A stretch of DNA of 64,000 nt from Formosa agariphila KMM 3901 (GTDB taxonomy: Bacteria; Bacteroidota; Bacteroidia; Flavobacteriales; Flavobacteriaceae): the NCBI RefSeq assembly GCF_000723205.1, contig NZ_HG315671.1, positions 1,585,351-1,649,350 of the forward strand, read 5' to 3'. The stretch's first letter is position 1; the number at the start of each line of letters is the position of its first letter. The notes beneath the pieces are model-generated. The model did no database searches and was not told where the DNA came from. It saw nothing but the letters and a program-made list of their open reading frames with translations. A program made the position numbers and the translations under genes. Shown here piece by piece: positions 14,313 to 26,056 of this stretch.

Positions 14313-15509
14313 TTATAACTTAATCCTGTTTTCAAATATAGCTAAAAATTGATTTAGTATCACTCCCCAATTTCTGATTGGCATGGTCCATTTTTTAGTG
14401 CTTTCTCTCAAAGCTAAAAACACGGATTTCATAACTGCTTCATCGGTTGGAAACGAGAGTTTGTTTTTTGTGTATTTCCGTATCTTTCCATTTAGGTTTT
14501 CTATAAGATTTGTGGTGTAGATTATGGTTCTTATTTCAATAGGAAAATCAAAGAATACTGTAAGCTCATCCCAATTATTTTCCCAACTTTTAATGGCGTA
14601 AGAATATTTAGAATCCCATTTAGTTTTGAAGTCATTTAAAGCAGCTTTGGCAGCTTCTTTTGTAGGAGCAGTATAGATTTGCTTCATGTCACGAGTAAAT
14701 TCCTTTTTGTCCTTCCAGACCACGTAACGACACGAATTTCTTATTTGATGCACAACACAAATTTGAGTCGTTGATTTCGGAAAAATAGTTTTAATAGTAT
14801 CCGTAAATCCATTTAAATTATCGGTAGCTGTGATAAGTATATCTTGAGTTCCTCGAGCTTTAATATCGGTTAAAACACTCATCCAAAAGGCTGAAGATTC
14901 ATTTTTACCTAACCATAATCCTAGGACTTCCTTTTTGCCATCTGTTCTCAGGCCTACTGCAATATAAATAGTCTTGTTTATGACTTTAGAGTTTTCCCTA
15001 ACTTTAAATACGATGCCATCCATCCAAACAATTAGGTAAGTGGCCTCCAAAGGCCTGTTCCGCCAAGCAATAACATCTTCTGTAATCTTATCTGTAATCC
15101 TTGAAATAGTGGATGTAGAAATATTAAAATCGTACAGCTCACGTATTTGTTCTTCAATATCACTGTTACTCATGCCTTTGGCATAAAGCGATATAATAAT
15201 ATTTTCGATGCCTTCTGTTGTACTTTCTCTTTTCTTTACAATTAAAGGATTAAAAGAACTATCACGGTCTCGAGGAACTTGAATCTCTGTTTCTCCTAAA
15301 ACGGATTTTAATTTCTTTTTAGTGTAACCATTTCGAAGGTTGGCTGCTTTACTTTTTTTGTGCTTATCGTAGTCTAAATGGGCATCTAGTTCCCCTTCTA
15401 GTAACTTCTCAATACCACGTTTGTGCAACTGTTCTAAAAAGGATGTTAGCTCTGGTGCATTCTTGAATTGTTTTAAAAAGTCTTCGTTTAATAAATCTTC
15501 TGGTTTCAT
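14313..15509 (-). CDS. IS256-family (Mutator-type) transposase
   Basis: 398 residues, normal length for the family. The N-terminal region includes the stretch [20 protein letters not shown], typical of this family. The catalytic DDE domain has [10 protein letters not shown] (first Asp), TDNLNGF (second Asp) and a C-terminal [18 protein letters not shown] region carrying the Glu. The frame is intact with no internal stop. It is the only gene of the element. Confidence 0.93.
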
Positions 15510-15647: not shown

Positions 15648-17345
15648 TTATCTTCTATAAACAGTATGTCCTTCTTTTATGGTTTCAACAACTTGAATAT
15701 CTTTTATTGTAGCAGGATCTACCTTAAGAGGGTTATTATCTAAAATGACTAAATCTGCTAATTTTCCTGGCTCTAAAGTCCCTTTATTCTGTTCTTCAAA
15801 GTGTTGATAGGCAGACCAAATTGTAATGGCTTTTAAGGCTTCAAAAGGAGAAAGTCGTTCCGTTTCTCCTATAATTTGTCCAGATCGTGAGGTGCGTTGT
15901 ACAGCTGTCCAAACAACTCGCATTAAGTTAGGTAATGCTACAGGTGCATCTGTATGAATCGAGATATTTAGACCTTTATTAAGAGCTGTTTTAACCGGAC
16001 TAATTCTGTTTCCTAACGAATCTCCTATAATCTCTTTATGCCAATCGCCCCAATAAAAAGTATGTAACGGAAATAAAGAGGTAATTACATTTAAATCTTT
16101 AAATGCATCCAATTGATCGTCTCTAACATATTGCCCATGGATTAAGACATTTCTACGATTATCGTTACCATATTTTTCGGCTAAAGGCTTCATGGTTCGT
16201 ATCATTTGATCCATGGCCGCATCTCCATTAGCGTGAGTTAAAACCTGATAATTATTAGCAAAGGCTTTTTCGTAAATGGCTGTAACATCTGCATCATTTG
16301 GAATGGCAGGATATCCTAAGTAGTTTTTATCGGCACCATCTGGAGGCAGTAAATAAGGGATAGTTCTCCAAGCTGTTCTTCCTTGTGGGGAGCCATCTAA
16401 AGTGACTTTCATTCCGCCAACGCGATAGTGATTTGTATAGTCTTGAGAATACCATTTAGATTCTAAAGGATCTGTAAACATATAATCTACATAAGACACT
16501 ACATCGAGTTTCCAAAAGTTATTTTCGGCAAATTCTGCTAACAAATCGTGTTGTTCCATGGCACGTCCTTCTTGAGCGGTGGTGTATCCATAAGATAGAG
16601 CCATCTCTTGTCCGGCTGTCATGAACTGCAGTAATGCCTCTTTAGACGCAGGCGTTAGCGCCTTAGCATATAGTGGAATGGCTGCCAGTTCTTCTAAAAC
16701 GCCATTAGGCTCTGTAGTATTTGGCAGTCTTCTAATAATACCGCCTTCAGGATCTTTAGTATTGGCTGTTATATCTAAAAGTTCAAGAGCTTTAGAGTTT
16801 AGAGCTGCAAAATGCCCAGAAATATGAATAATCATAATAGGTGTTTCTGTACTCACTTGGTCTAAGTCTTCTTTTGTAGGGAATCGTTTTTCTTTAAGCA
16901 CCGAATCGTCAAATCCCATTCCGAATATCCACCCTGTAAGGGCTCTGTTTTCAGGAGTATTCCAAGCTTTAAGAATTTCAATTAATTTAGGAATATCATC
17001 TGCTTGAGCATCTGGCGATGGTAATATTTGTGCACCAATAGCTTGCGAAGAAAAACTAGCGAAATGTGCATGACCATCAATAAAACCAGGTAATAATGTT
17101 TTGCCTTCAAGATTAATCATTTTATGCCCAGAACCCGCAATTTCCATGGCTTTACTAGATTCACCTGCAAATTCTATTTTGCCATCTCTTATAACCAAAG
17201 CATCTACATATTCGGGAGAATCTCCAGCCATAGTTATAATGTCTCCTCCATAATAAACGGAAGCCTTATTTTCTATGTGTTTTCTTTCATTGTCATTGCA
17301 AGAGAACAGAATAAGTCCTAAAATTAATAGCAAGCTGTTTTTCAT
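15648..17345 (-). CDS. YtcJ-type amidohydrolase, lipoprotein
   Basis: 565 residues. A signal peptide ends in the lipobox LILFSC (Cys about 16), so it is probably membrane-anchored outside the cytoplasm. The amidohydrolase metal site HAHFA follows LLPGFIDG near residue 90. Further motifs are LTHANGDAAMDQM, LIHGQYV and a C-terminal ISIHTDAPVALPN, the pattern of the YtcJ branch of metal-dependent amidohydrolases. The C-terminus LADLVILDNNPL closes the composite beta domain. Substrate unknown. It lies upstream of the TlpA-like gene on the same strand, and the IS256 element now separates them. Confidence 0.85.
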   Translation of the reverse strand: MKNSLLLILGLILFSCNDNERKHIENKASVYYGGDIITMAGDSPEYVDALVIRDGKIEFAGESSKAMEIAGSGHKMINLEGKTLLPGFIDGHAHFASFSSQAIGAQILPSPDAQADDIPKLIEILKAWNTPENRALTGWIFGMGFDDSVLKEKRFPTKEDLDQVSTETPIMIIHISGHFAALNSKALELLDITANTKDPEGGIIRRLPNTTEPNGVLEELAAIPLYAKALTPASKEALLQFMTAGQEMALSYGYTTAQEGRAMEQHDLLAEFAENNFWKLDVVSYVDYMFTDPLESKWYSQDYTNHYRVGGMKVTLDGSPQGRTAWRTIPYLLPPDGADKNYLGYPAIPNDADVTAIYEKAFANNYQVLTHANGDAAMDQMIRTMKPLAEKYGNDNRRNVLIHGQYVRDDQLDAFKDLNVITSLFPLHTFYWGDWHKEIIGDSLGNRISPVKTALNKGLNISIHTDAPVALPNLMRVVWTAVQRTSRSGQIIGETERLSPFEALKAITIWSAYQHFEEQNKGTLEPGKLADLVILDNNPLKVDPATIKDIQVVETIKEGHTVYRR

Positions 17346-17506
17346 CTTAATAGATTTAATAAGTCTGTATTGAAATATGACACATTTAAAAATTGCTTTA
17401 ACATCGATTATTAATGTGTCACATGAGATGCATTGTTGTATAAAGATACGTGTAATGGTATTTATAGTGTAATTTATTTTATTTTTTTGGCGCCTTTAAT
17501 GTGTTT

Positions 17507-18124
17507 TTAATCATTTTTAATCGAATATTTTTCAAATGCATTGTATACCGCAATGTGTAATGCGTCTCCGTGTATTTTGTTTTTCATTCTTTTTAGCTTG
17601 TCATATAAAGCTTTGGTAGTTCGTTCCATGATTTCTCCTTCTTTTCCTCCAGCGATATAGACAGTTTTATTTGACTCTAATTCCTTAGGTTACTCGTTTA
17701 AGAGGTTTTCGTCGTCTCACCATAAACTTGGGTTCACTATAAGATAGTTTTCAAAAAGTTCAGGTTTTTTGAATAGAATTTCTGTAGCTAATAATCCGCC
17801 TAATGATAGTTCTATAATGATTTTGGTTGATGTTGTGCTGTAAGTAGAATCGATAAATGGTTGAAATTCATTTTGTATAAAAGCAATAAAACTTTTAGAT
17901 TTTCCAGATGTTGGAAATTCTTTTTGGTCAAGTTTGTTTTGGGAAGGATATGTAAAATCTTTTTTTCGGTCTACATTTCCAATTCCAACAACAATAGATT
18001 CCGGAATCATGTTAATCCAAGAAAATGAAGCGAACTGAACTATTCCAGAAGTATGTATAAAATCTTCATCTTTGGATTCGTCGAGTAAATAAATTTCAGG
18101 ATAGTGTATTATCTTTTGAGTAAT
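17507..18124 (-). pseudogene. esterase (alpha/beta hydrolase) pseudogene
   Basis: One reading frame from about 18124 down to the stop at 17507 reads as a putative esterase of the enterochelin-esterase-like family. It has YPEIYLLDES, HTSGIVQFAS, SIVVGIGNVDR, then the nucleophile region IIELSLGG and NPSLW, and a helical C-terminus to YNAFEKYSIKND. The frame is broken by a TGA directly after NPSLW, where relatives have a second Trp followed by Asp-Asp, and by a TAA nine codons later. The N-terminal signal peptide and first strand are missing, because a stop precedes the first recognisable residues. The usual GHSLGG is degraded to ELSLGG. I call it a decayed remnant. Only its central 97 codons remain open from an ATG. 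Confidence 0.8.
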
Positions 18125-18179
18125 TCAAAGGAAGATGTTTAAATATCTTTAAAAAAATAATAAGTTATTAATTAAATCT

Positions 18180-18416
18180 TTATTTAATTTTTGATTTCTC
18201 AACAACTTCATTTCTCAAAGAACGAAAAGTAAAAAACCAAATAGGAATATTTACTAACATAAAATACATTAAGTTAAAACTTTCATTTGAATTTATACTA
18301 CTAAAAATTAAACTACCCAATGTAACTCCTGTTAATAGAAATCCGAATGCCAATATTAAAATCGCCTTTTTCGTGAAATACAAATAACCCAATTTGACAT
18401 AAAATTTATCATTCAT
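18180..18416 (-). CDS. small membrane protein of unknown function
   Basis: 78 residues with two predicted membrane segments (about 15-35 and 48-64) and a charged C-terminus (RNEVVEKSKIK). I do not recognise the family. It has no cassette-type site after its stop codon, so I place it in the chromosomal backbone just outside the cassette array. Confidence 0.55.
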   Translation of the reverse strand: MNDKFYVKLGYLYFTKKAILILAFGFLLTGVTLGSLIFSSINSNESFNLMYFMLVNIPIWFFTFRSLRNEVVEKSKIK

Positions 18417-18479
18417 AATTGTTTTAAGTTTATATGTTAGTATTTAATTTTTATAATTTAAATATTTTTATTAGGAAGC

Positions 18480-18613
18480 TAATAGCTGTGTGTAATAAAC
18501 TTCTAAAATAGGCTTTTGCTATCGCAAAATCTGGTTTAATATATGATAATTCATATAGAAGTACTTTAGTTAAAAGTTAATGCTTTTTTACTTGTTTTTT
18601 ACCACAGTACTTT
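18480..18613 (+). mobile_element. 134-bp remnant of an IS110-family 3' end
   Basis: This segment aligns without gaps to 20780-20913, the 3' end of the intact IS110 element, with six differences in 134 positions. The remnant contains the last codons of the transposase and the right terminus. It ends immediately before GTT at 18614, exactly as the intact copy ends before GTT at 20914. In both cases the GTT is the start of a cassette-site outer arm. The rest of the element and any cassettes beyond it have been lost. Confidence 0.88.
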
Positions 18614-18623
18614 GTTGTACATA
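18614..18623 (-). repeat. outer arm of an IS110-disrupted cassette site
   Basis: GTTGTACATA on the plus strand, just after the stop of the 18632 gene. It is the exact inverted complement of TATGTACAAC at 19361-19370, at the start of the same unit. The remainder of the site is replaced by the IS110 remnant. Confidence 0.75.
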
Positions 18624-18631
18624 GTACTTTT

Positions 18632-19360
18632 TTAATAGCTTTCAAATTCATAGTAATAATTTTCACCATTCGAAAAGTCATATTCTAAATTTCGTTTGTT
18701 CGCCCAAATTTGCTGTTTTGAGTATTTAATTTCAATTATAGATTTCTTTCCATAAGACTCTTTTTGTAATGTATAACCATCTTTTCTATAATTGTATTTT
18801 TCAATAATAACTGGTTTTTCAGAATTTTCTCTGTAGCTATAACTTTCTAAAATTCTCCTTTTTTTGTCAAAAAATAAAGTATCTTTAATTACAAAAGCTG
18901 TTTTATAGTTTGGTTCTTTTACAGGGTCAAAGTCCCAAGCATAAATTGTAACATATTTTTTTTGTCTTAACTCTTTGGTTTCTGTAATTGAAATAATTAA
19001 AGAGTCAGAATCATAAAATATTCGTTTTTCAGTTTTCTTTTTCTTGTTATAATTATATTTTGAAAAAGGAAGTGCGATACAAGTATCAGAACTTATAAAA
19101 TACTCACAATTAGTTTCTAGTTTCTTTCTGTTTTTATAATAAGTTATATTTTTTATTCTATTTCTAAAAGTTTTTGAAATGATATCATAACCACCGAAAC
19201 GAACTTCTTTAATTAAACGACCTCTATTGTTAAAATAACTCTTTCTAACTTTAATAATCGTGTCAATTTCTTTTCTGAATTCAGTAATTGCTTTTGTCTT
19301 TTGAGAAAAACTCAAGAAAAAACTTAGTAATATGAATATGAGTATGAGTTTTTTTAGCAT
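18632..19360 (-). CDS. exported protein of unknown function (cassette gene)
   Basis: 242 residues with a signal peptide (LILIFILLSFFLSFSQ). The body is beta-rich, Lys/Tyr-rich and has repeated strand-turn units of the type YFNNRGRLIKEV, which recall toxin-immunity-like or MORN-like repeat proteins. I do not assign a family. The ATG at 19360 lies directly after the unit junction (GTTGTACATA then ATG), so the gene starts within a few bases of the recombination point. An extension to a TTG at 19369 would run into the junction and is rejected. The unit is bounded by a 10-bp inverted repeat. Confidence 0.68.
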   Translation of the reverse strand: MLKKLILIFILLSFFLSFSQKTKAITEFRKEIDTIIKVRKSYFNNRGRLIKEVRFGGYDIISKTFRNRIKNITYYKNRKKLETNCEYFISSDTCIALPFSKYNYNKKKKTEKRIFYDSDSLIISITETKELRQKKYVTIYAWDFDPVKEPNYKTAFVIKDTLFFDKKRRILESYSYRENSEKPVIIEKYNYRKDGYTLQKESYGKKSIIEIKYSKQQIWANKRNLEYDFSNGENYYYEFESY

Positions 19361-19370
19361 TATGTACAAC
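19361..19370 (-). repeat. cassette junction, 5' end of the 18632-19360 unit
   Basis: Reading in the gene direction, the previous site ends TATACATAAAC and the unit begins GTTGTACATA. The latter is complementary to the arm at 18614-18623. Confidence 0.75.
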
Positions 19371-19500
19371 GTTTATGTATATGGAAAGTTGAGTGTTTGT
19401 GTGCGAGGATTTTCCGAAGGAAAATCAGAAGCTAGCAAACAAAGCAACTAACATTGGTTAAGCTAAAACTAGCAATTTTTTATATACTGTGTTAGCTTTT
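19371..19500 (-). repeat. cassette recombination-like site after the PLDc_N gene, 130 bp
   Basis: In the gene direction the site begins AAAAGCTAAC, then ACAGTATAT, then AAAAAATTGC. It contains a GATTTTCC / GGAAAATC hairpin and ends CATATACATAAAC before the next unit's GTT. The inner arms GTATAT and ATATAC pair. The length from the 10-bp outer arm to the junction is 130 bp, identical to the two other intact sites. Confidence 0.75.
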
Positions 19501-19520
19501 AGTGCTTTTCTCTAAAGTTA

Positions 19521-19709
19521 TTAATTCAGTTTTAATTTTTTACTTTTTCCAATAAATAAATATAAAAGTGAACCTAAAAGTGGAAGTAATATAACAACCA
19601 AAGCCCAAATAACTTTGTCGTTTTTCTGAAACTGATTTCTTAAAATGTCAATTAAACAAAAAATCCAAAGTCCAATAGAAATTAATATTAAAGCTTGCCA
19701 AATAAACAA
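19521..19709 (-). CDS. PLDc_N-domain membrane protein, probably 5'-truncated cassette gene
   Basis: About 62 residues with two membrane segments and the signature WALVVILLPLLGSLLYLFIGK of the small PLD-nuclease N-terminal (PLDc_N) membrane protein family. The frame has no ATG. The most upstream practical start is a TTG at 19709, and the open frame continues about eight codons further to a TAA. The expected GTT junction with the sequence complementary to its own site arm (GTTAGCTTTTAG type) is missing upstream, where the IS110 element begins. I infer that the IS110 event removed the native start. Function of the family unknown. Confidence 0.55.
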   Translation of the reverse strand: MFIWQALILISIGLWIFCLIDILRNQFQKNDKVIWALVVILLPLLGSLLYLFIGKSKKLKLN

Positions 19710-19741
19710 GACTAAATTAATACCTATAAATTAGAAAGAAC

Positions 19742-19905
19742 AAAAGAGAGGAATAAGGTTATTATACACGGAGAGACTACAGATCTCGTCAACATTGAAA
19801 ATCCCCTCTCTTTTACTACACAGATTTCGTACAGTTCTATGAGGCTTTTAGACCTCGATTTTAAGTCGTTGAAACTCGCGTAGTCGTCCTTTCAAAAATC
19901 ATTTT
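19742..19905 (+). ncRNA. putative IS110 bridge RNA (seekRNA)
   Basis: The leader of the transposase gene is about 170 nt, the right size for an IS110 bridge RNA. The first domain is a stem AAAAGAGAGG (19742-19751) with CCTCTCTTTT (19805-19814). It encloses an internal loop and a small hairpin GAGA...TCTC (19773-19787). The 5' side of the loop holds TTATACACGG (19762-19771) and the 3' side GTCAACA (19788-19794). These are the positions of the left and right target guides in described bridge RNAs. A second hairpin, GAGG...CCTC near 19841-19856, is placed like the donor-binding loop. The guides match the cassette sites (see findings). The exact 5' and 3' ends are not determined. Confidence 0.6.
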
Positions 19906-19908
19906 CTT

Positions 19909-20880
19909 ATGAATAAAGATATTAAATATTTTGGAATTGATATTAGCCATTTAGTTTTTGATGTGACAGATTCAGATGGCAATTACTACCAATTTAAAAA
20001 CACAATTTCTGGCTTTAAAAAATTCACAAAACTCTTAGATTTGGATAGTCATTGTGTTATGGAAGCCACGGGATACTACCACTATCAATTGGCCTATTAT
20101 TTACTAGAATTAGGGATAAAAGTATCAGTAGAAAACCCTTTAGCTGTTAAACGCTTTATCCAGATGAAGTTGTCTAAGATCAAGACCGATAAGAGTGATT
20201 CTAAACTTGTTTGTGAATATGCAAAACAAGTAGATTTAAAGCCCTGGGAAGGTCAATCCAAACATCAAACAGAATGTCTTCAAATGACCAGACTCCTTAC
20301 TGTGTATACAAAACAGAGTACTATGCTGAAGAATAAAATACATGGTGAAGCCGTTTTAGGAAATCCTAGCAAAGCAGTTGTAAGTTCTATTAAACGAAGC
20401 TTAAAACACGTTTTAAAAGAAATCAAAACTTTAGAAGATAAACTGATGGTATTAGTTAAAGAAGTCCACCAGGATGTATTAACTCGCTTAAAAAGCATAC
20501 CAGGAATTGGAAATAAAACGGCATTGATGCTTGTGGTTCTTACGGATGGTTTTGAGCGTTTTACAAGCGGTAGTGAACTCTGCAGTTATGCTGGATTAAC
20601 TCCTGTAGTTAGAAAGAGTGGTAGCAGTGTAAATGGACGTAGTAGAATAAGTAAAATAGGAAATCAAAAGCTTCGTAATTTATTATTTATGTGCAGTTTT
20701 AATGCCTGTAAATACAACAAAGCATGCAGAGATATTTATGAACGAATTGTAGCAAAAGGGAAGAGTAAAAAACTAGCTTTAATAGCTGTGTGTAATAAGC
20801 TTCTAAAACAGGCTTTTGCTATCGCAAAATCTGGTTTAATATATGATGATTCTTATCGAAGTACTTTAGTGAAAAGTTAA
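19909..20880 (+). CDS. IS110-family transposase (DEDD recombinase)
   Basis: 323 residues. The N-terminal RuvC-like DEDD domain starts KYFGIDISH, with the first Asp at about residue 10. MEATGYYHYQLAYYLLELG carries the Glu near residue 48, and KTDKSDSKLVCEYA has the later Asp pair. The C-terminal Tnp_20 domain has LKSIPGIGNKTALMLV and AGLTPVVRKSGSSVNGRSRISKIGNQKLR, with the serine used by IS110 recombinases. The frame is intact, so the element may be active. Confidence 0.93.
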   Translation: MNKDIKYFGIDISHLVFDVTDSDGNYYQFKNTISGFKKFTKLLDLDSHCVMEATGYYHYQLAYYLLELGIKVSVENPLAVKRFIQMKLSKIKTDKSDSKLVCEYAKQVDLKPWEGQSKHQTECLQMTRLLTVYTKQSTMLKNKIHGEAVLGNPSKAVVSSIKRSLKHVLKEIKTLEDKLMVLVKEVHQDVLTRLKSIPGIGNKTALMLVVLTDGFERFTSGSELCSYAGLTPVVRKSGSSVNGRSRISKIGNQKLRNLLFMCSFNACKYNKACRDIYERIVAKGKSKKLALIAVCNKLLKQAFAIAKSGLIYDDSYRSTLVKS

Positions 20881-20913
20881 TGCTTTTTTACTTGTTTTTT
20901 ACCACAGTACTTT

Positions 20914-20922
20914 GTTGCCACC
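20914..20922 (-). repeat. outer arm of an IS110-interrupted cassette site
   Basis: GTTGCCACC on the plus strand, just after the stop of the DUF4145 gene. It is complementary to GGTGGCAAC at 21913-21921 at the start of the two-gene unit (13 bp with one mismatch if extended). The IS110 element begins immediately to its left, replacing the remaining part of the site. Confidence 0.75.
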
Positions 20923-20927
20923 AGTTT

Positions 20928-21557
20928 TTATTTTTTCCGACGTTTAATTAATTCCTCGTATTGGTTTACTAAATGATATAAATAAGTTATTAAGGCGTCA
21001 AAAAAATCAATCGCTTCTTTCGCATCTTGTTGGTCAACAATTTGGTCGTGCGAATGTGCTCCATCGTTTCCGATTAGTCTCAATTCGTTCGCCCAACTAT
21101 ATAGAGTATTTTCTAAAATTCCTTTTGAATTTAGATTTTTCAGTTTAGTTGCGAGATTTCCTTTAATTTCTCCTTTGTCCATACAGATTGCTTCTATTCC
21201 TTTCCGACACATTATGACACAAGCGTCATATGCGTGCGCACGATAACATTTCAAAGCTTCTTTATAAGGGTTAAATACAATTTTCGGACAATTTTTAATC
21301 GCTATGTTTTCTGTATTTGGAAAGAATTGAATTTCACTATTCGGATAAAATTCTCCCTCGACAATTTGATAATGATTTTGTTTTAGAAACGGATTTTGAC
21401 ATTTCAAGCACTTACTCAATGAAATTTCAGTAGTGTTTCCAAACATTTCATCGTTCATTTCACGTTCGGCAGTATATGTGAAAATAATTTTTGTTTCGAC
21501 TACAGAATTGCAAGTCGGACAAAAATTCATTTCTTTATGTTCCTCGTTTTCGGTCAT
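20928..21557 (-). CDS. DUF4145-domain protein with N-terminal zinc ribbon (cassette gene)
   Basis: 209 residues. Residues 12-60 form a likely zinc ribbon (CPTC ... CLKC). The C-terminal half (about 100-200) is a DUF4145 domain, with ALKCYRAHAYDACVIMCRKGIEAIC and LRLIGNDGAHSHD. DUF4145 modules are often found in restriction and other defence proteins and in isolated accessory genes. The molecular activity is unknown. It shares a unit with the 91-codon gene 58 bp upstream. The junction between them lacks a complete site, so the two genes appear to travel together. An IS110 element has inserted directly behind its stop codon. Confidence 0.78.
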   Translation of the reverse strand: MTENEEHKEMNFCPTCNSVVETKIIFTYTAEREMNDEMFGNTTEISLSKCLKCQNPFLKQNHYQIVEGEFYPNSEIQFFPNTENIAIKNCPKIVFNPYKEALKCYRAHAYDACVIMCRKGIEAICMDKGEIKGNLATKLKNLNSKGILENTLYSWANELRLIGNDGAHSHDQIVDQQDAKEAIDFFDALITYLYHLVNQYEELIKRRKK

Positions 21558-21615
21558 TTCTCAAATTGTTGGCAAAGGTCTAGTGTATGATTAGTGGTGT
21601 GTTTAATTATTCTTT

Positions 21616-21891
21616 TTAAATATCAGAACCGCTTACAATATCAATTAAGTCGGCTTTTAGCCATTCAGAATATTTTTCGTTCAACATTTCAATCTCTGAT
21701 TCAACAGCGTTTTCAAGTTCTTGTCCTGTTTTTCCTTTATGTAATTCTAATATTTCAATTTGCCTTTTTAGTATTGAATCTAATTTGTAGCTATTCATTA
21801 GAGAATCAGCCTTTAATTCTAATAAAAAAGTAGGAATGTCAATATTAAATTTGGGATTGTTTAATTCGTCTTTTATGTCGTCAAAATTCAT
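21616..21891 (-). CDS. small helical protein of unknown function (cassette gene)
   Basis: 91 residues, acidic and predicted mostly helical (IDIPTFLLELKADSLMNS, then EIEMLNEKYSEWLKADLI). It has no signal peptide and no recognised domain. It is the first gene of a two-gene unit whose second gene encodes the DUF4145 protein. The ATG at 21891 is about 30 bp after the unit junction. A pair of one small protein and one DUF4145 protein could be a functional module, but nothing in the sequence proves it. Confidence 0.68.
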   Translation of the reverse strand: MNFDDIKDELNNPKFNIDIPTFLLELKADSLMNSYKLDSILKRQIEILELHKGKTGQELENAVESEIEMLNEKYSEWLKADLIDIVSGSDI

Positions 21892-21912
21892 AAATATGAG
21901 TGAGTTTTAATT

Positions 21913-21921
21913 GGTGGCAAC
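21913..21921 (-). repeat. cassette junction, 5' end of the two-gene unit
   Basis: In the gene direction the preceding site ends TTACACAAACAC and the unit begins GTTGCCACC, complementary to the arm at 20914-20922. Confidence 0.75.
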
Positions 21922-22051
21922 GTGTTTGTGTAAGGATAGTTGCGTGTGCAAGCAACTAACTTACTAAAAATGGAACGAACCAGAGGAAAATCCGCAGGAT
22001 TTTCCGAGTAGGCTAGAACCAAGCAATTATTTTTACACGGTGTTACCATAC
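21922..22051 (-). repeat. cassette recombination-like site, 130 bp
   Basis: In the gene direction the site begins GTATGGTAAC, then ACCGTGTAA, then AAATAATTGC. It contains a GGAAAATCC / GGATTTTCC hairpin and a GTTGC...GCAAC hairpin, and ends CTTACACAAACAC before the next GTT. Inner arms GTGTAA and TTACAC pair. The length is exactly 130 bp. The outer arm GTATGGTAAC is complementary to the first ten bases of its own unit (GTTACCATAC at 22491-22482), not to those of the next unit. Confidence 0.8.
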
Positions 22052-22056
22052 GTTTT

Positions 22057-22479
22057 TTAATTCCGTTTCAATTTTTGGTCAGATTTAAATTCAAATCCAG
22101 AATTGGGTATAAGTTTTTTTCTTTTCATTGAGTATTCATATTCTGATTTTGTCAAAGTCCATTTTCTTTGAGTCGGTTCAGTTTTGATTCCGTTGATAAT
22201 TAAAAAAAGTATTCCGTTCTCAACTGTCCAGTTTCCTTTCTGTTCAAGCCATTTTATTCCGCGATGAGTATAAAAGTTTTTTCTGTAGAAAGTTCCATTC
22301 TTATATAAAACTAGACTATCTAATTCCATTTTTCCTGGATTTATACCTTCTTTGTTTTTGTAATATTTTACTTTTTCAATCTGTTTTCGGTATTTATAAA
22401 TATCTTTTATCTCTTGAGAAAATGAAAAGTTCACTCCAATTGAAACAGTAAAAATTAATATGAGAATGTCTTTTTTCAA
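22057..22479 (-). CDS. exported protein of unknown function (cassette gene)
   Basis: 140 residues with a signal peptide (ILILIFTVSIGVNFSFSQ). The body is a Lys/Tyr-rich beta protein with a WTVENGILFLIINGIKTEP segment resembling small lipocalin-like secreted proteins. I do not assign a family. The frame starts with TTG at 22479, with no ATG nearby. That start lies only 3 bp after the 10-bp unit end, so very little 5' leader is carried by the unit. Confidence 0.65.
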   Translation of the reverse strand: MKKDILILIFTVSIGVNFSFSQEIKDIYKYRKQIEKVKYYKNKEGINPGKMELDSLVLYKNGTFYRKNFYTHRGIKWLEQKGNWTVENGILFLIINGIKTEPTQRKWTLTKSEYEYSMKRKKLIPNSGFEFKSDQKLKRN

Positions 22480-22481
22480 AT

Positions 22482-22491
22482 GTATGGTAAC
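22482..22491 (-). repeat. cassette junction, 5' end of the 22057-22479 unit
   Basis: The unit begins GTTACCATAC in the gene direction, a perfect 10-bp inverted match to 22042-22051 at the unit's own 3' site. Confidence 0.8.
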
Positions 22492-22621
22492 GGTCTCGTA
22501 TAACCGTCAGTTACGGGTTAAATTAGCGATTATTTTCGATTTAGCACAGACGTCAGCAATTCCGAGTGGATTCGGACGTAGTCGAATCCGCCGTAATTGC
22601 GGTTATACATTGTTGTAACAC
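22492..22621 (-). repeat. cassette recombination-like site, 130 bp
   Basis: In the gene direction the site begins GTGTTACAAC, then AATGTATAACCG, and ends CGGTTATACGAGACC before the next GTT. The inner arms GTATAACCG and CGGTTATAC are a perfect 9-bp pair. Between them lies a hairpin GGATTCG...CGAATCC extended by GCAATT...AATTGC. The length is exactly 130 bp. The outer arm matches the first ten bases of its own unit at 23211-23202. Confidence 0.8.
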
Positions 22622-22626
22622 GTTTT

Positions 22627-23172
22627 TTATTCAATGAACTGCGCTCTAATTCGGTCAATTAATTGGTCTTTATATTGCCAAAGTATTAAATAGTTTGGTG
22701 AGTCAATTCCTCGCAAAATATTTATTTCATTCCGCAAAAAGTCAGTCAATTCTGGTATGCTAACTGAATCATCTGGGTTTGTTGTATATTGTAAATATGC
22801 TGGAATATGGATTCCAAAAACTCGGTCAGTAACCAAATAATTTATATCCCTTACAATTCCAGAAAACAGCTCGTTGTCAATTATCAGTCCTTGATTACGT
22901 GAGAGATTTAAATGAGGATTAGCTTTATTAATTTCTGTTATATAGCGTTCCAGTTGTTCAATCATACTGGCTTTTGCTTCTCTGCTGTACCTTTTGTCTT
23001 CGATTTCGACTATTTGAGTTTCCAAATCCTCAATTTGTACGCTCGTATTTTCCAATTCTTGAGCAAAACGAATTCTTTCCGCATCATTAGTCCAAATCTC
23101 AATCCTCAATTGTAAGTCGTGTGCAATTCTTTTTGCTTCAATAAGTTCTTTTAGTAATTCAATTTCGTTCAT
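22627..23172 (-). CDS. coiled-coil protein of unknown function (first cassette gene)
   Basis: 181 residues, cytosolic. The first 85 residues are charged and helical with coiled-coil character (ELLKELIEAKRIAHDLQLRI, then SVQIEDLETQIVEIEDKR). The remainder is mixed (ISIPELTDFLRNEINILRG). No known domain is recognised. It is the unit closest to the recombinase, where a newly acquired cassette would sit if the system works like an integron. The ATG at 23172 is 39 bp after the unit junction. Confidence 0.68.
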   Translation of the reverse strand: MNEIELLKELIEAKRIAHDLQLRIEIWTNDAERIRFAQELENTSVQIEDLETQIVEIEDKRYSREAKASMIEQLERYITEINKANPHLNLSRNQGLIIDNELFSGIVRDINYLVTDRVFGIHIPAYLQYTTNPDDSVSIPELTDFLRNEINILRGIDSPNYLILWQYKDQLIDRIRAQFIE

Positions 23173-23287
23173 TTTTCAGGATTTTGTTGGTTTGTTCAAA
23201 TGTGTTACAACGTTAGTATATAGCACTTGTGTTCTATATATACCAAATATAAGATATATAGAACATATGTTTTATATATCTTATATA
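23173..23287 (-). promoter_or_regulatory. attI-like region and candidate cassette promoter
   Basis: The region between the recombinase stop and the first cassette gene holds a perfect 14-bp inverted repeat (23247-23260 with 23273-23286) and an overlapping perfect 11-bp inverted repeat (23230-23240 with 23255-23265). The junction TACTAAC/GTTGTAACAC follows at 23211. There is no outer arm or 130-bp site here, as expected of a primary insertion site. TATATTTG (23251-23244, minus strand) fits the Bacteroidota -7 element and could start transcripts into the cassettes. I see no clear -33 partner. Confidence 0.5.
23202..23211 (-). repeat. cassette junction, 5' end of the first unit
   Basis: The unit begins GTTGTAACAC in the gene direction, a perfect 10-bp inverted match to plus-strand 22612-22621 at the unit's own 3' site. 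Confidence 0.8.
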
Positions 23288-24418
23288 TTAATTGTCTAAT
23301 GGATTTATAATTTTTTTAAAGGTTGTTGTGGCAACGTGTGTGTAAATTTCTGTGGTTTTTGTAGAACTATGGCCTAGTAGAACTTGAATCTGTCTAATAT
23401 CTACACCAGATTCTAGCAAATGTGTTGCAAAACTGTGCCTTAATATATGTGGGGTTACTGTGTTTCGTAATCCTGCTTTTTTAGCGGCATTAACTACTAT
23501 CCGTCCTATACTCTGAGCAGAATATTGTTGCCCTGGCAAACCTTCAATTATATATGTTTTGGGTTTCCATTGTTTGTAATATTCTCGTAATTCTTTTAGT
23601 AACTGATAAGATAAAAGTGTGTATCTGTCTTTTTTACCTTTTGCAGATTCTATACGAATAAGCATTCTTATACTATCTATATCCGAAATTTTTAAATTGA
23701 CTAATTCACTTCTTCGTATACCAGACGAATACAATAAACTCACTATGCATTTGTGTTTCAAATTATTTGTATGGTCTATTACTTTTAATACATCTGCTTT
23801 CGATAGTATTTTGGGTAACTTTTTAGCTTTCCTAGGACGTTCTATTTTATAAAACCGATTTGGCATTCCTAGTACAGTTTCATAATAAAACTTAATACTA
23901 TTAATGGCTATATTAACATAAGAGTCCGATTTGTTTTCATGAATTAGCGATAGAATATACTGCCTAACATCATTTTCATTTATCTCCAATAATGGTTTTG
24001 ACTTATAGTAATTTATAAATTTTTCAAACGCCAGAATATAACTTTTAACAGTATTATTTGCATATTTTTTTAATTCTAATTTATCTAAATAAGTTGATGG
24101 ACACAGCCGATAAGAGTTAGGTACTACACGTTTCCTAAACCACGTAATATCCATGGGTTCATTGTTTTCATGTATTGGTTTTTGGTCGAAAAAATATCTA
24201 GAATTTATCCACGCAATGCCTCTAAAAGTGTCGAAAATGCTATTAAGGTTTTCATTTGTATTTAAAACGTAAGCCATATTAAATTCGTCACTCCACTTAA
24301 TGTCTGCCAATTGTTTTATTAGAGCATCTATAATTTTATCCGAACTGTATTGTAGTCCGATGTACTTTTTGTTTTTAATAAAAAGATGCTTTAATGTAAT
24401 ACTTCTTCCATGCTCCAT
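23288..24418 (-). CDS. tyrosine recombinase heading the cassette array
   Basis: 376 residues. About 105 N-terminal residues are an extra region of unknown role. A SAM-like core-binding domain follows at about 110-190 and the catalytic domain at about 200-370. All catalytic residues are visible: Arg 235 in SSGIRRSEL, Lys 260 in SAKGKKDR, His 324 and Arg 327 in HILRHSFATHLL, His 350 in LLGHSS and Tyr 359 in IYTHV. The C-terminal half is XerC/D- and IntI-like. The insertion that defines integron integrases, between the Lys hairpin and the HxxR motif, is absent: that segment is short (PKTYIIEGLPGQQYSAQS). The gene points toward the cassettes. I infer that it recombines the 130-bp sites. Confidence 0.85.
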   Translation of the reverse strand: MEHGRSITLKHLFIKNKKYIGLQYSSDKIIDALIKQLADIKWSDEFNMAYVLNTNENLNSIFDTFRGIAWINSRYFFDQKPIHENNEPMDITWFRKRVVPNSYRLCPSTYLDKLELKKYANNTVKSYILAFEKFINYYKSKPLLEINENDVRQYILSLIHENKSDSYVNIAINSIKFYYETVLGMPNRFYKIERPRKAKKLPKILSKADVLKVIDHTNNLKHKCIVSLLYSSGIRRSELVNLKISDIDSIRMLIRIESAKGKKDRYTLLSYQLLKELREYYKQWKPKTYIIEGLPGQQYSAQSIGRIVVNAAKKAGLRNTVTPHILRHSFATHLLESGVDIRQIQVLLGHSSTKTTEIYTHVATTTFKKIINPLDN

Positions 24419-24533
24419 AATGCCGTATTTTTATACAATTTACTGAATGTAAATGATTTAGATACGGGTTTTTGTGAAAAAATAATGATGAAACGTCTGG
24501 TTAATAGTTGTTTATTCCTTTCTAAATTAGTGC

Positions 24534-25502
24534 TTACTTTTTAAAAGAACGTTCATTAAAAAAATCGAAAGCACGAACTTCAGCATAAGATTGTTTAGAA
24601 TCTTTTAAAGGAAACGCACAATGGCCTCCGTATTTAGGCGTTTCTAAATAGACATATTTACTGTTTTCCGCAATCGAGTTGGGGTAACAACGTTCGCCTA
24701 AAAAAGGATCATCTAAAGCATTAATAATAAGTACTGGGGTGGTAATGTTTTTAAGGATAAATTCTGGTGAAACTTTTTCGTAATAATCATCCTTGTCGGT
24801 AAAACCATGCATAGGTGCGGTAAAATAATCGTCAATCTCAGCAAAACTGTGTAATGCGTTTATTTTATCGGTATTTGCTAATTCGGGAAACTGAATTACT
24901 TTTTGTTTCAGTTTATTTACTATTCCTTTTTTAAATGTATTTAAATAGACTTTATTGAATCCGACTTTTAAAGTATCAGAACATGTTCTTATATGCGTAG
25001 GCGCAGAGACAGCAACGGCAGCTTTAATACGAGAATCAAGCTTTTGTTTTCCTAAATAGTTTAGAACTTGTGCACCACCCATAGAATATCCAATAATATA
25101 TACAGATGCTATACCTTGGCTAAATGCAAATTGTACTACAGCATCTAAATCTTCTATAGAGCCATGATGATACATTTGTGGTAAACGATTCATGTGTCCG
25201 CCACAGGTTCTATTATTCCATGCAATAACAGAAAAATCACGTTCTAAAAAATAATTAGCACAACTGTTATTATAAGTGCGTCTAGAATCTCCTTCTAATC
25301 CGTGACATAAAATAACGGCTTTCTTCAGGCTTTTAATACTGTAGTCGATGTTTAGGAAATCGCCATCACTTAACTCTAATATTTCTGTCTTGTAATTTGG
25401 TGTGTCTACATGTTTAATTTTGGCGGCATATATGGTAGAAAAATGCGGATTTCTATGGACTAATCTAGGAGCTTGGTATTTTGATTGTGAAATTATTGGC
25501 AT
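24534..25502 (-). CDS. YheT-like alpha/beta-fold hydrolase
   Basis: 322 residues, cytosolic. The alpha/beta hydrolase core shows VILCHGLEGDSRRTY (oxyanion region), the long FSVIAWNNRTCGG segment typical of the YheT/COG0429 group, and the nucleophile elbow IGYSMGGAQ near residue 145. Aspartate and histidine candidates are in LDDPFLGERCYP and GGHCAFPL. The family comprises esterases of uncertain substrate. The next gene on the strand is an SRPBCC protein 92 bp away, with no obvious functional link. Confidence 0.85.
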   Translation of the reverse strand: MPIISQSKYQAPRLVHRNPHFSTIYAAKIKHVDTPNYKTEILELSDGDFLNIDYSIKSLKKAVILCHGLEGDSRRTYNNSCANYFLERDFSVIAWNNRTCGGHMNRLPQMYHHGSIEDLDAVVQFAFSQGIASVYIIGYSMGGAQVLNYLGKQKLDSRIKAAVAVSAPTHIRTCSDTLKVGFNKVYLNTFKKGIVNKLKQKVIQFPELANTDKINALHSFAEIDDYFTAPMHGFTDKDDYYEKVSPEFILKNITTPVLIINALDDPFLGERCYPNSIAENSKYVYLETPKYGGHCAFPLKDSKQSYAEVRAFDFFNERSFKK

Positions 25503-25594
25503 TGATAATGACTTCTGGTGTGAGCTATTTTAAGTTTGATCTCATAGAGATTATAACCTGTTTTGTAGGCTATATATTAATATTGAGATGAATT

Positions 25595-26056
25595 CTAAGT
25601 ACCGAATAATTCGTTTAGAACAGTATTTCTATATTCGAAAATTTCATTTAATTTATGCTTAATCATTATGCTATTGGCAAGTACTCCTAAAATGCCGAAA
25701 GGCGGCTGATATGTTACAATATCTTTCATTAAAGTACCTCCATTTGTTTCTTCTAAAAAATGCTGATGATGCCAAATTTTATAAGGACCAACACGCTGTT
25801 CGTCTACAAAATAATGTTTGTTTTTTACATGTGTTATTTCTGTAACCCAGGTGGTTTTAATACCCAAAACAGGGGAGACTTTATAGTTAATAATCATCCC
25901 TTCGTACATGGCATTTGGTAAATCTTTAGATACAATATCGAAGCCCATATAATCTGGTGTAATGGTTTTTAGGTTTTTAGGACTCGATATAAATTCCCAT
26001 AAAACATCTATAGACTGATTGAAAAATTGTTCACGTTTAAATTGATAGACTGCCAT
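25595..26056 (-). CDS. SRPBCC-family ligand-binding protein
   Basis: 153 residues of the START/SRPBCC fold. It has KREQFFNQSIDVLWEFISSPKNL at the N-terminus, TTWVTEITHV in the middle and QHFLEETNGGTLMKDIVTYQPP before the last helix, the layout of the cell-division-inhibitor-like SRPBCC proteins. Such proteins bind hydrophobic ligands. No catalytic residues are evident, and the specific ligand is unknown. Confidence 0.75.
   Translation of the reverse strand: MAVYQFKREQFFNQSIDVLWEFISSPKNLKTITPDYMGFDIVSKDLPNAMYEGMIINYKVSPVLGIKTTWVTEITHVKNKHYFVDEQRVGPYKIWHHQHFLEETNGGTLMKDIVTYQPPFGILGVLANSIMIKHKLNEIFEYRNTVLNELFGT

Follow-up and report, generated by a model that had tools for sequence, protein, structure and literature searches.

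An IS110-type element of Formosa agariphila whose leader is predicted to encode a bridge RNA with guides for attC-like cassette sites and for its own ends

Sequence comparison indicates that the leader of an IS110-type element in Formosa agariphila KMM 3901 very probably (I put this at roughly 0.93) encodes a bridge RNA, with guides for attC-like cassette sites and for the element's own donor ends. One copy of the element lies in the 64,000-nucleotide stretch of the genome analysed here (hereafter the window). The conservation of the RNA structure, the covariation of guides with targets and with donor ends, and the position of insertion were observed directly. In the proposed mechanism, the left guide of a first hairpin would read as the top strand of the target from -9 to -2, its right guide would complement +1 to about +5, and a second hairpin would hold donor guides for the right end and the left start of the element. 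The excised element, its two ends abutted, would then be joined by the RNA-loaded recombinase to the attC-like arm (TATAYACG-N|TGTTR), with insertion between N and T and no target duplication. Production of the RNA, a circular intermediate and activity of the enzyme are inferred. Guides tuned to the inverted-repeat arms of repeated cassette sites would leave many copies of a dispersed repeat open to the element, and a mutation in the guide would shift the target along with it.

The window copy, delimited by the sequence it shares with three full copies elsewhere in the genome, is left-truncated and occupies positions 19711–20912 of the plus strand. Identity with the other copies is clear from 19711, and when gaps are allowed the alignment extends to 19701; its start falls within these bounds, and some 16–25 nt of the left end are gone, together with the left part of the target site. 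Lacking its left end, this copy is probably unable to move in its present form. Its right end, CACAGTACTT at 20903–20912, abuts the right end, TGTTG, of an occupied cassette site (20913–20917, plus strand). A right-end relic of a second copy is found on the same strand at 18480–18612 (96% identity over 138 nt including TGTTG), followed by TGTTG at 18613–18617. The right junction is CTT|TGTTG at both occupied sites (18612|18613 and 20912|20913), and the TGTTG that an earlier note on this DNA had reported at both is thus confirmed. A Mutator-family (Transposase_mut) gene is also present in the window, at 14313–15509, outside the cassette region.

Since the left end of the window element is lost, its left target is unreadable, and the sister copies supply the test. 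The genome holds four full-length transposase genes and two right-end relics. Both ends are present in three of the four copies, which reach further left than the window copy, to CTTAAGTTAGC, and start CTTAAGTTAGCATTTTAATAAAAAC immediately past the target arm. Their start CTTAAGTTAGC is preceded by TTATACACGT, TTATACACGT or TTATATACGG, and their end CAGTACTT is followed by TGTTG, TGTTA and TGTTA.

The transposase gene (19909–20880, plus strand, 323 amino acids) matches the Pfam families DEDD_Tnp_IS110 and Transposase_20 as well as NCBIfam NF033542, the last above its cut-off, and its PDB matches are the ISCro4 and IS621 recombinases. The catalytic residues D11, E52, D94, D97 and S237 were located in alignment with ISCro4, and the protein possesses the DEDD RuvC-like domain and the Tnp domain with catalytic serine of the IS110 group. 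For IS621, the residues given in the available text are D11, E60, D102, D105 and S241 (PMC11208158). In the window copy, 32 nt separate the transposase stop codon from the right end of the element.

The predicted bridge RNA region spans 19734–19893 on the plus strand, and is closed by a helix P0 of GAAAG (19734–19738) and CTTTC (19889–19893). Within it, a target-binding hairpin (19742–19814, plus strand) has an outer stem P1, AAAAGAGAGG/CCTCTCTTTT, and an inner stem P2, GAGA (19773–19776)/TCTC (19784–19787). It is followed by a donor-binding hairpin (19816–19883, plus strand), with an outer stem P3, CTAC (19816–19819)/GTAG (19880–19883), and an inner stem P4, GAGG (19841–19844)/CCTC (19853–19856). 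These helices were scored in an alignment of leaders thinned from 82 to 64 diverse sequences, five loci being omitted by choice and others for N or shortness. All five helices are well conserved, with 91–99% of pairs kept and many two-sided changes. For P1, scored over the six pairs 19746–19751/19805–19810, 380 of 384 cells are paired (99%), with 22 two-sided changes against a shuffle maximum of 6; the corresponding values are 251/256 (98%) and 64 against 32 for P2, 245/256 (96%) and 8 against 4 for P3, and 252/256 (98%) and 36 against 20 for P4, the shuffles ignoring the relatedness of the sequences. P0 is the weakest, with 289 of 318 cells paired and six two-sided changes against a maximum of five. 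The leader folded as a single sequence is no more stable than its shuffles (z of -0.18 and 0.04), and minimum free energy is uninformative here; an Rfam scan of positions 17000–26000 gave no match to a bridge-RNA family. The compensated helices place the predicted RNA upstream of the gene, with the target loop before the donor loop, as in the IS110 group.

In the target-binding hairpin, the left guide TTATACACGG (19762–19771, plus strand) corresponds to target positions -10 to -1, of which -9 to -2 are recognised (19763–19770, TATACACG). The right guide GTCAACA (19788–19794, plus strand) contains CAACA, the complement of target positions +1 to +5, TGTTG. The earlier note had these two strings flanking an internal loop in the hairpin at 19742–19814; they do lie there, and the compensated structure of the 64 leaders agrees with this assignment.

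The sites at which these guides would be aimed are repeated in the window. Two unoccupied attC-like cassette sites on the plus strand, at 19366–19497 and 21917–22048, score 115.5 and 111.2 bits with a model (R1) whose alignment includes both of them; the second holds the predicted target, at 22031–22047. A weak site lies towards the recombinase gene (22487–22618, plus strand, 35 bits, E 0.003). The model was built from 24 unoccupied sites and 150 candidates were scored per genome, so that counts are lower bounds: there are at least 28 such sites of about 130 nt in the own genome (E 0.01), at least 101 in the genome G003 and at least 64 in G004, and 12 of 20 genomes, counting the own one, contained sites. 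The sites resemble attC in their inverted-repeat arms, their AAC...GTT ends and their occurrence in arrays. The own copies whose left junction is intact, three in number, each occupy one of the at least 28 sites, and the insertion point is the same in all. In the window, a cassette gene (ORF 22057–22479, minus strand) has its stop codon next to the TGTT end of the site, and the element would therefore separate the gene from its site.

A tyrosine recombinase of 376 amino acids (23288–24418, minus strand) presumably belongs to the cassette array. It scores 227.4 with NF040815 (site-specific tyrosine recombinase/integron integrase, cut-off 220) and 199.7 bits with the integron integrase model TIGR02249, below the cut-off of 265, and so falls outside the integron integrases as defined by the latter. 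At E 1e-60 or better, 7 of the 16 genomes searched have a homologue, and G003 has none; in four genomes (G002, G006, G008, G011) the homologue is about 0.5–13 kb from a listed site. It is possible that the arrays (19366–24418 in the window, and those of G000, G003 and G004) represent an unrecognised integron-like system of Flavobacteriaceae.

Joined, the two guides predict the target TTATACACGG-TGTTGAC. The earlier note had found the cassette string TTTTACACGGTGTTACC to agree with it at 14 of 17 positions; the match stands, and its coordinates are corrected from 22034–22050 to 22031–22047. On both strands of the window, matches of 14 of 17 occur at two places, 22031 and 51590, against a mean of 0.07 and a maximum of 2 in 100 shuffles. 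The second of these, absent from the sites found by the R1 model and apparently unrelated, is what would be seen if an AT-rich leader and AT-rich repeats were alike by chance, but with 0.07 matches expected per shuffled window, and none of 10,000 permutations reaching the agreement of guide classes described below, this explanation is extremely improbable. A search of the own genome for the site with up to two mismatches remained near background (372/343 against 299/332 for controls). Saturation of the perfect sites was also considered, as the own genome has no empty TATAYACG N TGTTR, and was set aside, the three readable occupied sites being too few.

I then turned to relatives of the element. 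A match at E 1e-60 or better was found in 33 of 295 genomes, the own genome counted, and a species collection provided 80 named loci, the best 80 of 332 relatives and mostly Flavobacteriaceae by title. From 150 oriented loci, 122 had a recognised leader and left end, 21 being dropped because the motifs recognised no leader or left end and seven because of too little upstream DNA. Removal of duplicates and of flanks shorter than 12 nt, in which L076 and L106 were lost, left 107 distinct insertions, with hosts mostly Flavobacteriaceae. Two of the dropped loci, L155 and L156 (left end CTTAAGCTT), match their own guide by eye at 6 and 7 of 8 positions.

Over the 107 insertions, the left guide has the letter of the left flank in 71–97% of cases at positions -9 to -2, against 37–90% expected, with p = 0.0005 at each position (2000 shuffles). 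Further out, from -10 to -13, the excess is not significant, and the guide does not track the target at -1 (0.32 against 0.26 expected, p = 0.08). Grouped into 27 guide classes, guides and targets match at a mean of 6.74 of 8 positions, against 4.18 for permuted guides (maximum 5.19, and 0 of 10,000 reaching 6.74), in permutations that likewise ignore relatedness. The class of L157–L162 was read one base further along, its loop being one base longer, a choice made post hoc; without it the values are 6.79 against 4.23, again with 0 of 10,000. Some guides and targets are identical, for example TATAGCCG/TATAGCCG, CTCAAACA/CTCAAACA, ATTAACCG/ATTAACCG and TATATGCA/TATATGCA, and for several variant guides the site arms carry the matching variant, as in guide AACGGTTTTGGCTATGG and target CTATAGCCG. 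At position -5, a guide T faces a target C in 10 of 54 cases and a guide C a target T in 3 of 35, the pattern that a wobble would give. The covariation of guide and target that the earlier note had called for is thus seen at each position from -9 to -2.

In a rival reading, the recombinase protein itself would recognise the folded attC-like arm, the guide resembling the site because both are conserved. One motif, TATAYACG, is indeed common to most guides and most targets, and one site that was tested folds better than shuffles as bottom-strand DNA (z -2.72). However, the covariation is bounded at -9 and -2, and of the 20 insertions whose guides diverge, 19 have a target better fitted by the element's own guide than by the majority guides, also at places for which no partner arm turned up; the exception is L180, which the majority guides fit better. 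Recognition by protein is accordingly very unlikely. The same 19 of 20 answer an objection anticipated in the earlier note, that relatives might lie at unrelated sequences: some are indeed inserted elsewhere, with a guide that has changed as well.

The right flank is more uniform, with TGTTR in 116 of the 131 loci that have a right end (some being one insertion fetched twice). Among the 107 distinct insertions it is TGTTR in 89 (56 TGTTG, and 33 TGTTA, which mismatches the guide at +5), unreadable in 8 and different in 10. Right guides that are clearly switched are tracked by the right flank in three of four cases, namely GTCACCA with TGGTG (L123), GTAAACA with TGTTT (L177) and TTTTTC with GAAAA (L186); the misfit is L075, with guide TTTTTC and flank GGTTA. 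Minor changes in the right guides of L068 and L103 are not tracked. The right target guide of L073, L113 and L129 is interrupted by a palindromic insert (such as CCCGAAGCTTCGGG), yet the elements are located at TGTTR; these are perhaps dead copies.

Some relatives are re-aimed, at variant arms, at the opposite arm or at an apparent group II intron. L075, L076 and L186, with guides TTTGTGTA or TTTGTATA, are located at the opposite arm of attC-like sites. In L123, from Zobellia amurskyensis, both guides are re-aimed and the element is inserted at GTATGTACGG|TGGTGTGAG, which I take, from its appearance, to be domain V of a group II intron. The same genome has a sub-threshold match to RF00029 elsewhere (34.9 bits, cut-off 40), in a locus containing TGTACGGTGGTGTGAGAGG; no gathering-level match was obtained when L123, L098 and L177 were scanned with Rfam.

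According to the earlier note, insertions of relatives should fall in sites of about 130 bp. A strict left-arm motif precedes the insertion by 106–123 nt in 40 of 105 cases, against 8 of 5250 shuffles, and a more general inverted-repeat test, which requires a partner arm preceded by AAC, is positive for 67 of 106 insertions and 227 of 4240 shuffles. The partner arm was not found at L098, L099, L123 and L177. The claim that the element is programmed for cassette sites is supported overall, with the qualifications that the target coordinates shift by 3 nt, that position -1 is unrecognised and that the window copy is left-truncated.

Elements sit in cassette arrays, and in some genomes a tyrosine recombinase is nearby; the element might thus travel passively within gene cassettes and be placed by the cassette recombinase, its guide match being incidental. 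Five scar-like places, in which a shared GTTAG links the beginning of the element with a cassette end, could be taken in the same sense. Against this, there is one insertion point inside the site and the cassette sequence to its right differs, and the elements with other guides (L098, L099, L123, L177) are at the places without a partner arm found. The scars themselves, at GTTA and not GTTG among the matches listed, fit loss through short homology better than a recombinase acting at GTT. I consider passive travel highly improbable, and insertion directed by the guides remains the preferred reading.

In the scar-like places, the first 9–11 nt of the element (CTTAAGTTAGC) are fused to a cassette end at GTTAG. 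Two in the own genome join at GTTAGC, and there are at least three more among 299 genomes of the family; flanks were read for L232 and L239, while G000:C1:2051659, G111:C8:375117 and G417:C58:137961 are 35-nt matches alone. I considered whether the left end CTTAAGTTAGC mimics a site end for the cassette recombinase, and judged this less likely, since all five scars have GTTA and none GTTG among the matches listed. As 56 of the 89 TGTTR insertions have TGTTG, scars at GTTA alone make loss via a short shared sequence more likely than action of the cassette recombinase. In L058, L106, L183 and L185, the right junction is CTTA(A), the left start of the element, in place of TGTTR; these elements perhaps inserted anew where a scar had been left. 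L047 (fetched a second time as L130) and L132 are tandems in which the right end abuts the left start, the form expected of a circle. L051, L080 and L081 share a left flank of at least 770 nt, which looks like another transposase gene, and have different TGTTR right flanks.

The donor-binding hairpin shows a similar correspondence with the element's ends. The left donor guide ACAGTTCT (19831–19838, plus strand) matches the right end of the element, ACAGTACTT here and TCAGTTCTT in other subfamilies, and the base before CAG in guide and right end is A/A in 48 cases, T/T in 44 and mixed in none (92 readable of 107). The right donor guide TTTTAAG (19859–19865, plus strand) is the complement of the left start CTTAA; TTTTAAG or TTTCAAG is paired with CTTAAGTT in most of the rows listed, the low variation making this a weak test. 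Guides matching both target and donor, as in the IS110 group, are thus present.

With the core taken to be the dinucleotide immediately left of the border, the same cut as in IS621, the donor core is TT and the target core mostly GT or GG, also AT and others; the shared donor and target dinucleotide of IS621 is not found. All 93 right junctions that precede TGTTR have TT as their last two bases, and left junctions retain GT, GG, AT or others. This combination of a donor core on the right and a target-like core on the left suggests the top-strand product as the outcome of natural insertions. T appears favoured at -1 (33 GT and 20 GG in occupied sites, 18 and 51 in unoccupied ones, Fisher 9e-5), as does A at -8 with TATAYACG guides (58/63 occupied, 59/78 unoccupied, p = 0.013); both preferences are confounded by sampling, because the empty sites come from one genus and the insertions from many.

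The element is of a known kind of RNA-guided element, its mechanism being that of IS621 and seekRNA and its target class that of the IS1111-attC group; what is unusual is the repeated target. In the available text on IS621, the RNA lies upstream of the gene with the target loop before the donor loop (PMC11208160), and the top strand is cut after the core (PMC11208158). As in IS621 and the IS110 group, a DEDD-serine recombinase is combined with an upstream bridge RNA that has its target loop first, and the left guide reads as top strand and the right guide as complement (PMC11208160, PMC11208158). Unlike in IS621, the target is a dispersed attC-like repeat, and the cores are unequal, where IS621 is described with CT in donor and target. 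According to that account, IS621 could also recombine with GT, AT and TT cores (PMC11208158). I count the unequal cores as a difference from IS621 and as no ground for exclusion from the IS110 group.

The IS1111-attC group is reportedly treated by Tetu and Holmes in 2008 and by Post and Hall in 2009. As described in the accessible parts of PMC11187229, its members (ISKpn4, ISPst6) are RNA-guided, belong to the same superfamily and target one end of certain integron attC sites, and the IS1111 type usually has its RNA downstream, with reversed guide order and subterminal inverted repeats. The element here differs in having its RNA upstream, where the conserved structure is found rather than downstream of the transposase, and in its mostly Flavobacteriaceae hosts. 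It resembles the IS110-type ISEc21, a seekRNA element, which according to the same parts of that source has its RNA upstream, a bottom-strand match 5' of the top-strand match, no duplication on insertion and a naturally redirected relative; ISEc21, in contrast, targets IS3-family transposase genes (PMC11187229). Among the papers listed in literature searches, which take in few subscription journals, I saw none that describes an IS110-type element directed at cassette sites in these bacteria.

These relatives form a natural series of closely related RNA-guided recombinases with many guide-target pairs, which could inform on the guide positions that count, wobble tolerance and the resolution of unequal cores. 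They also represent a second branch of the superfamily, the IS110 type beside the IS1111 type, settled in the recombination sites of cassette arrays. The odds are about even for a broader reading, in which an integron-like cassette system in Flavobacteriaceae, so far little recognised, serves an IS110-type lineage as its niche: guides would evolve with the arms of the sites, switch arms and now and then move to repeats of another kind, group II introns for example, and the junctions would record the strand outcome. Settling in cassette sites could freeze or reshape gene-cassette arrays.
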